From the NCBI GenBank assembly GCA_960531495.1, contig OY482848.1, positions 20,338,397 to 20,402,396 on the forward strand: a stretch of 64,000 nt of DNA, given 5' to 3'. This document shows positions 31,305 to 34,300 of the stretch, in pieces. The notes below the pieces were generated by a model that was not told where the DNA came from, did no database searches, and worked only from the letters and a program-made list of their open reading frames with translations. Each line of letters opens with the position of its first letter. Position 1 is the stretch's first letter. The translations under genes were made by a program, and so were the position numbers. Origin of the DNA: Zeus faber. Its lineage: Eukaryota; Chordata; Actinopteri; Zeiformes; Zeidae.

Positions 31305-34300
31305 ATGAAGGTACAAAGTGTGGAACACATTACGTTCAAAGATCGAATTGTTGTCTTGGAAATATGAACATGTAGTCGAAGCGGAGTCTGCGAAGCAAGC
31401 AACGCGCTGCCGCGTTTGGTCAAATATCGATCCCCCGCGGAAGATTGGTGCAGATTGTCATCGCTGAAGCCGCGGCTAAGGTTTGCTAGGCCCCCGCTTG
31501 GAAAGATGGCGGCCCGCTGTGAGAAATGTGTGGCGTTTCAAGTGTTATCAAAAGCCTGTAAATGTACCGTATTTCCTCTCTGGGCTGAGTTATCTGGGCT
31601 GCGAAACACTCTCACCCGACTGGCCATGTGCTGGTTCTAAAGCCGTAGCTTGGGAGAGTTACGTTTTCTGTCCGACATTGAAATACCGGTAATGAACGTT
31701 ATCATCCTTAATGTTCCAACATCGGAACGTTTATGACTAAAAGCTTGTTCTAAGCGGATCCATCAACACGTCTCACTAAAAGAGTGGCGGCGGCGGCAGC
31801 TTTACATGATGCTGCTTGTGTGGTGGTGGCGGCCAGAACCTGCTCCCGCTTCACTCTCCCGGTGCCTGCGTTAACAGTCGTACGCCTTGTCTTGCAGCTG
31901 AACATCTCATTCCCCGCTACTGGCTGTCAGAAGCTGATCGAAGTCGACGATGAGCGCAAACTGCGCATTTTCTACGAGAAGCGCATGGCCACCGAGGTGG
32001 CTGCTGATCCTCTTGGAGATGAGTGGAAGGTGAGTTCTATCAGTTACTCATTCACTTGGCCTGAACGTGTACCTGTCTTTGTGCCACTTGAGCTTATTTT
32101 AACTTTGAAAAGGCACGTTGTCACCCTATAATGGCTGAACGCACTGGAAATTGCTGGTAGTTTCTGTGCCTCAGAGCATTGCCAGAGATATCACCCAAAG
32201 GCAACGAGATGCATTGCACGAGATAAACTGTTTGTTCTGGCTCTTTCCAATGTATTGCTCCTAATAGAAGAACTGAGCTGCAAGGCTGCCATCGGTTGTT
32301 TCTACGGTTGTTCATAGAATGGAGGTGTGAACCACCAGGCCATGCACAACTGTCTGCTGAATATAGACAAGAGGGGAGTCAATTAATATAGACCGAAAGT
32401 TAACTGTCCAAACTAAAATGTAAATCAGGGTAGGTTACAGCCTCCGTCCCTACAATTTCAATCATTTCTTGTTCTTAATTAATCTTATTGCTGAAATCAA
32501 ATAACTTTTGAATTCTGAAAACAGCAGTCGGGCACAGTACTAATTATTCGTGGAGCATCTCGATGACTTTGGTTTACTGATAACATTATGAACCAGTAAC
32601 TTGCTACTTTTACGTTTTATGTTTCATAAAGTATATCTATTAAAACAGTTATTTGAAACGCGCCATAATGGCACACAAGTAGACCCTTTCTGATTTATCA
32701 GTAGTCTTTAAGGGGGGACATGTGTTGCTAAAGTAACTGCAGAGCCGCACTCAATAAGGCCAGACCTCACCATGGCTGGTTAAACTGTGCTGCCTTCTCA
32801 CTCAGGATTCTGGTGATCACAAACCGATTTCAGCATTTCGAGACAGTCTTTGTAGCTTTCCCAACCTGATAATGGCACTGCTCTCAACCATGTTAGTGTG
32901 GTAATATAACGCAATGTAATTGTTCCTTCCATTCTACCCAGGGCTACGTGGTGCGCATCAGCGGAGGCAACGACAGACAGGGCTTCCCCATGAAACAGGG
33001 GGTGCTGACCCATGGCCGTGTGCGCCTGCTGCTCAGCAAGGGCCATTCCTGTTACCGCCCACGCAGGACCGGTGAGCGCAAGCGCAAGTCTGTCCGTGGA
33101 TGCATTGTTGATGCCAACCTGAGCGTCCTCAACTTGGTCATCATCAAGAAAGGTAATTACACGTGTCATCCAGTTTCAACAGCCATTACAAAAATTTGAA
33201 TACAGCCCTGTCTATGAAAGCAATAAGACACAACATCCAACGCTTCTCAGGAGACATTCGTGAGGTTCCTTCTGAATCAGTGAATTTCCACCCTAGCACA
33301 ACATTGATAATTTTAAGGGGAAACAGACACTTAGAATAACTTAAATATGCCTGCATTTGAAGGAATGGTTGTTTTGAATAATACTCACAATCCCAATACT
33401 GAGAATTGGCAAAGGAATATTTAAAAGTTGTTAGGGCCTTGATATTATAGGATTCTGCCCTACAAACACCATCCATGTCTAATGGGCCTGGATGATTGCT
33501 GTAAAATTGAGAAATTGTGTATTCTACCGGAGGGGGGGCGGTGTAAGTCTGCTTTATAGGAGGGAAATTAAAACAATGGTTCTCCATGCTCTCTAAGGCT
33601 CATGTGGAAATCACTGGTGGCCTGAATTTGCCAACATTGGTCCCATGGCGACATCACTGCTCTACACATGTGTATTGCAATGTCTTGTTGAAACTATATT
33701 CCGCCTGGTCAGCTTAAACCTTCAAAAAATACTGCTGTTTTTTGTGTGAAAGCTGTAATTTGAAATGTATATTCCTGGCACAATAGTAGACCCTTTTTGA
33801 TTTCCTGTAGTCTCTAAGGGGGGACACTGTTGCCAAAGTAACTGCAGAGCAGCACACAAACGTGACTAGTCCCTCACTATGGCTGGTTGAACTGTGCTGT
33901 ATTCTCATTCCAGATTTTGTTCATTACAGATAATCAAAATTTTAAATGAATAAACTGTGTTAACCTAATTTATCTTATTTTACCTTTCCTAACTTCCCAG
34001 GTGAGAAGGACATTCCCGGGCTGACCGACAGCACTGTCCCTCGTCGCCTTGGTCCCAAGAGAGCAAGCAAGATCCGCAAGCTCTTCAACCTGTCCAAGGA
34101 GGATGATGTCAGACAGTACGTTGTGAGGAGACCTGTGACTAAAGAAGGTGAGCTCCAGCCCCCTCATCACTCAAATGTAGTAGTCTACACATTCATACGA
34201 GAACGTCTGAGAAATACTGGTCATGGTTTAGCTGCTTCAGTCTTCATCAAGCCACCTTGTTGTTGTAGTGTCTCATGCTGGCAGGTCAACAAGAATCCAA

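Follow-up and report, generated by a model that had tools for sequence, protein, structure and literature searches.

SNORA58 (ACA58; Rfam family RF00418) is a vertebrate H/ACA snoRNA of about 135 nt, in which two hairpins are separated by an H box and the guide strands GUAG and GGGACA lie in the pocket of the 5′ hairpin. The human gene sits in MRPL3, and in H/ACA RNAs the distance from pocket to box is usually 14–16 nt. SNORA58 is listed for human 28S-Psi3823 (PMC12931454). A chicken study has a table in which ACA58/B and yeast snR9 are both assigned, by the 5′ pocket, to site 28S-3333 (PMC2653536). Yeast snR9 is itself listed for 25S-Psi2340, with Cm2337 and a modified U at 2347, 2349 and 2351 nearby (PMC8307265). 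The site is the uridine equivalent to the SNORA58 target, and it is by this listed site that the two RNAs are likened here. Other sites for SNORA58, 18S-1608 and 28S-2930, are predicted in a bovine study (PMC12427106).

The chicken study also provides the nearest parallel for the arrangement that we describe. In chicken, snoRNAs are described as expanding mainly by intragenic duplication into adjacent introns, with the guide regions kept, although about 90% of the H/ACA snoRNAs are singletons (PMC2653536). Those adjacent-intron paralogues share their type of origin, duplication within the host with retention of the guides, with the pair reported below; they differ in belonging to other families and hosts, and the term 'rps6' is absent from the text available (PMC2653536). 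In zebrafish, TOP-type initiation occurs alongside canonical starts in the host genes of snoRNAs, as it does in ribosomal protein genes (PMC6954239, in which the available portion leaves rps6 unnamed), and this would suit rps6 as a host.

We have analyzed a stretch of 64,000 nt of the Zeus faber genome (contig OY482848.1), referred to as the window and numbered from its first letter. Two neighboring introns of rps6 each contain an element, copy A and copy B, and it is very probable that these are paralogous intron-encoded homologues of SNORA58, duplicated between the introns, with a 5′ hairpin that probably guides pseudouridine formation at the 3823-equivalent uridine and with a noncanonical 3′ end. 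The reading draws on an end-to-end match to RF00418, on preserved guides and H box, on base pairs changed on both sides and on the rank of the predicted target site. The two RNAs look related to SNORA58 by descent and probably work like it. The introns and the elements are as follows, where the E-values come from a search space of 2.6 kb at a permissive threshold.

32030..32941, forward strand: rps6 intron 2, host of copy A; both flanking exons match PF01092, GT/AG ends
33153..34000, forward strand: rps6 intron 3, host of copy B; GT/AG ends, exon 3 matches PF01092
32669..32803, forward strand: copy A, SNORA58-like H/ACA RNA in rps6 intron 2; cmscan RF00418 50.6 bits, E = 5.9e-8, model positions 1-136 of 136
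33776..33910, forward strand: copy B, SNORA58-like H/ACA RNA in rps6 intron 3; cmscan RF00418 38.4 bits, E = 4.6e-5, model positions 1-136 of 136

The identity of the host gene is secure. Exons 2 and 3 are matches to Pfam Ribosomal_S6e (PF01092); no Pfam match was obtained for exon 4 or for exon 5 when each was searched by itself. The end of copy A lies 138 nt from the next exon, and that of copy B 90 nt. An earlier note on this DNA had placed two copies in the same orientation in introns 2 and 3, and the alignment of the introns, the Pfam exons and the GT/AG ends bear this out. Further along the gene, intron 5 seemingly contains a Tc1/mariner-like transposon relic (window 34950-35790, recognized by eye).

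The best local alignment of intron 2 with intron 3 pairs 32669-32821 with 33776-33928, with a score of 150. This greatly exceeds what chance would give, since 200 first-order resampled controls averaged 23 and never scored above 30. A TGGCA opens the similar stretch, and an ACA, the last letter of which is at 32821 in A and 33928 in B, closes it. The pocket strands and upper stem are identical in A and B at 24/24 nt, as are 16 nt beginning with the H box, while just 2/10 nt match immediately upstream of the copies and 23/60 downstream. The downstream matches comprise 12/18 up to the shared ACA and 11/42 over the next 42 nt. There is in addition a block located 11-27 nt upstream of the copies (32642-32658 and 33749-33765) in which 14/17 nt match, with ATTTGAAA identical; it lies outside the SNORA58 match.

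Both copies fall below the curated threshold of the family that they match. A scan of the window with Rfam at the default gathering scores returned no matches, and the gathering score of RF00418 is 75 bits. Nevertheless A and B align with the full model at significant E-values, which over the whole 64 kb window become 1.4e-6 and 0.0011, respectively. We conclude that they are SNORA58 homologues falling under the curated Rfam cut-off. The other matches in the window with E < 0.01 were mostly to microRNA families at 52.28-52.37 kb, together with one bacterial family at 45.8 kb. Several microRNA families are matched below their cut-offs on both strands at 52283-52365, most likely as a simple-repeat artefact. 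The earlier note had offered three interpretations, a noncanonical H/ACA RNA, a single-hairpin guide or a new structured RNA. The first of these fits, and the other two are unneeded because both hairpins of both copies align from end to end with RF00418. The copies are like SNORA58 in their two hairpins, the position of the H box, the guides, the target site and the length. They differ from it in their sub-gathering scores, in having UCA for ACA, and in being present as two copies in rps6 introns 2 and 3.

In the 5′ hairpin the pocket, with GUAGA and GGGACA as its strands, separates a lower stem GGCA/UGCY from an upper stem CCCUU/AAGGG. The two-part structure of this hairpin is the minimum-energy fold in each copy, and it is followed by the H box.

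32678..32689, forward strand: copy A 5′ pocket, 5′ guide strand AGUAGA and start of the upper stem; identical in B, GUAGACC also in the Rfam consensus
32709..32720, forward strand: copy A 5′ pocket, 3′ strand of the upper stem and 3′ guide GGGACA; identical in B, GGGGGACA also in the Rfam consensus, pairs with 28S UGUCCC
33785..33796, forward strand: copy B 5′ pocket, 5′ guide strand and start of the upper stem; identical to A
33815..33826, forward strand: copy B 5′ pocket, 3′ strand of the upper stem and 3′ guide GGGACA; identical to A
32730..32735, forward strand: copy A H box AAAGTA (ANANNA)
33835..33840, forward strand: copy B H box AAAGTA (ANANNA)

Both copies therefore have the layout of hairpin, H box (ANANNA) and hairpin, with internal-loop pockets, and GUAGACC, GGGGGACA and ARAGUAA are common to both copies and the Rfam consensus. 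The two-stem 5′ hairpin followed by AAAGTA was correctly recognized from the letters, with the boxes starting at 32730 and 33835. The spacing had been put at exactly 15 nt past the upper stem. This is true of copy A, while in copy B it is 14 nt; both distances lie within the usual range of about 14-16 nt.

How well is the fold supported by the differences between the sequences? Relative to the Rfam consensus, 6/19 counted pairs have changed on both sides and yet remain paired (two in the upper stem of the 5′ hairpin and four in the 3′ hairpin), where the 19 were picked from 27 listed pairs after seeing which held, and the rows compared were A, B and the consensus, the last not being a natural sequence. 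The eight pairs dropped before the count were 25-38, 74-133, 75-132, 79-126, 80-125, 93-114, 95-112 and 96-111. Three of the four both-side-changed pairs of the 3′ hairpin belong to the Rfam structure, as read from the structure line of cmscan. Within the 19 pairs 96.5% of cells are paired, compared with 35.1-47.4% when the partners are slid. The number of both-side-changed pairs was reached by 2/500 shuffles, and the number of further pair types by 99/500. These changes may be taken as support for the fold; they do not constitute an independent test of it. When RNAalifold was given only A and B, the resulting fold was not of the H/ACA type and contained no pairs changed on both sides. The pairing-preserving differences pointed out previously, TGCTA/TGCCA in the lower stem and CCAG/CTAG in the second hairpin, are real and pairing is kept. 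Each is a change of one side (G-U to G-C and C-G to U-G), so that they are not compensatory. Folding energy alone is unremarkable, being just mildly better than that of shuffled sequences: z is -1.04 (A) and -1.41 (B) for the whole copies; for the 5′ hairpins it is -2.29 and -1.86, and for the 3′ hairpins -1.23 and -1.60.

The 3′ end is where the two copies depart from the rules. An H/ACA RNA would have ACA, or a close ANA variant, directly following the 3′ hairpin and 3 nt from the 3′ end, and at the homologous position both copies read UCA. The earlier suspicion that the 3′ half does not place an ACA at the expected distance was thus well founded. An ACA common to both copies occurs further downstream.

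32798..32800, forward strand: copy A TCA at the position homologous to the ACA box (cmscan alignment)
33905..33907, forward strand: copy B TCA at the position homologous to the ACA box (cmscan alignment)
32819..32821, forward strand: copy A downstream ACA, in ungapped register with B; the A/B local alignment ends here
33926..33928, forward strand: copy B downstream ACA, common to A

The start of this ACA is 21 nt downstream of that of the UCA, and 16 nt beyond the point where the RF00418 match ends. In the 21 nt after the UCA the only ANA of copy A is the ACA at 32819, while copy B has AGA at 33912 and the ACA at 33926. The lack of an ACA box at the homologous position leads us to call A and B variants and not strictly canonical H/ACA RNAs. 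It is conceivable, and we put it forward tentatively as falling somewhat short of an even chance, that a canonical ACA box is dispensable for SNORA58 in this fish, both copies being stable, active guides by means of either the UCA or the ACA 21 nt downstream, the latter on an extended tail. A particular form of the SNORA58 assignment, and not one that excludes it, would have a longer working RNA of about 156 nt with an altered second hairpin, the downstream ACA being the real 3′ box. The alignment of A and B does end at this ACA, up to which the two are in ungapped register, and the matches fall away beyond it as described above. Yet in the computed folds the downstream ACA is not adjoined by any stem that both copies form, and it is located far past the usual 14-16 nt from the pocket. 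Moreover, the similarity of the upstream block means that the downstream tail may be a leftover of the duplication. We regard the longer RNA as unlikely.

The preferred assignment, two SNORA58 homologues with a noncanonical 3′ end, makes a prediction as to their target. The spacing of the listed sites fits the uridine in UGUCCC-U-A of eukaryotic large-subunit rRNA, as read in a partial sequence from another eukaryote (L019). The contig that carries it comes from a bin with a gammaproteobacterial name in GTDB; its full length matches eukaryotic LSU rRNA, indicating contamination. We scanned the fish's own LSU and SSU rDNA copies (7042 nt with 1545 U), in which there were 41 candidate sites. The expected uridine (human 28S-Psi3823, yeast 25S-Psi2340) ranks 1/41 for the 5′ pocket of both A and B under a relaxed rule that allows one mismatch and a free first position; in a first scan with a strict mismatch rule the SNORA58 site was unlisted and other sites came first. 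The score of the site is -15.57 for A (the next being -12.42) and -18.54 for B (next -11.49). In L019 it ranks 1/28 (A) and 1/29 (B). Since shuffled guides reached the best score in 90/300 (A) and 16/300 (B) cases, so that it is not rare for A and just moderately rare for B, the strength of the result lies in meeting a predicted site, and not in the score itself. Under the relaxed rule, then, the 5′ pocket of both copies is complementary to 28S rRNA around the equivalent of Psi3823. For the second pocket the best target scores were -7.32 to -12.69; the 5′ strand of this pocket differs between A and B, and it probably has no shared target.

The pairing of the 5′ guide is less complete in the fish's own sequences. 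At position n+4 of the target there is C in 5/6 of its 28S-like loci, where L019 has U; the remaining locus, which has T, is degenerate (L008). A pattern search of the genome for this region of 28S, allowing ≤1 mismatch, gave five matches, of which 5/5 carry C at n+4. They read CCAC where L019 reads CTAC.

C21:24166382-24166410, 28S-like pattern match reading CCAC
C21:25965962-25965990, 28S-like pattern match reading CCAC
C8:9327193-9327221, 28S-like pattern match reading CCAC
C9:2240164-2240192, 28S-like pattern match reading CCAC
C16:21590461-21590489, 28S-like pattern match reading CCAC

The substitution of CCCAC for UCUAC costs the 5′ guide 2/5 of the pairs seen with L019, and this holds for both of the two loci that match the pattern exactly. 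The pattern with T at n+4 has no match in the fish genome, because the copies found read C there. Viral contigs gave no match to the 28S target pattern and none to the snoRNA pattern. The rDNA copies available are partial or degenerate, and may not be the expressed ones. Two of the 28S-like fragments (L005 and L006, on C21) begin at query position 23, AGCCAAATG, the insertion point of R2 retrotransposons; around position 7000, a further locus (L012) may hold an R2-type element upstream.

The mismatch of the genomic 28S copies to the 5′ guide, the UCA present in both copies and the low Rfam scores would all be consistent with A and B being decaying SNORA58 pseudogenes, with loss of the ACA either preceding or following the duplication, and with the function transferred elsewhere or gone. 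Set against this are the complete identity of the 24 nt of pocket and upper stem and of the 16 nt from the H box, in copies whose flanks match at 2/10 upstream and 23/60 downstream, and the finding of no third genomic copy by family search, two DNA queries or pattern, searches that can miss diverged copies. Decay is in our judgement quite improbable.

We searched the 803-Mb genome of the fish in several ways for relatives of the two elements. DNA searches with A and with B (E up to 10) returned just A and B, although such a search skips very common words, so that the absence of further copies is not proof. A pattern combining the guides with the H box likewise found only A and B. A family search with RF00418 found A alone at E up to 0.001, scoring 41/43082 first-look candidates; it missed B, showing that diverged copies can escape such searches. 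When a model was constructed from the two copies and the consensus, it recovered both of them in the window, as it must by construction. Its third match there (38640-38735, minus strand, 15.9 bits, E = 0.033) is weak and was taken as chance. A dispersed transposon family had been named in advance as an observation that would overturn the snoRNA interpretation, and it was not seen. Two similar copies in nearby introns could in principle derive from such an element, yet the DNA searches with each copy yield nothing else in the genome, and each gives a full-length match to a snoRNA family. The chance of this origin is minute.

The SNORA58 homologues would have arisen by duplication between neighboring introns of rps6. 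Each RNA would be released from its spliced intron and assembled with dyskerin, NHP2, NOP10 and GAR1, and the 5′ hairpin would then direct pseudouridine formation at the 28S uridine equivalent to human U3823 and yeast 25S U2340.

In most respects this is routine snoRNA annotation in a ribosomal protein host gene, and the find is largely ordinary except for the missing ACA. An element that is missed by the default Rfam scan now has a family and a probable 28S target. As paralogues within one gene, the two copies offer a natural test of how strictly vertebrate H/ACA RNAs need the ACA box and guide pairing. If they do work without a canonical ACA, the rule for the 3′ end of H/ACA RNAs would look looser in this lineage.
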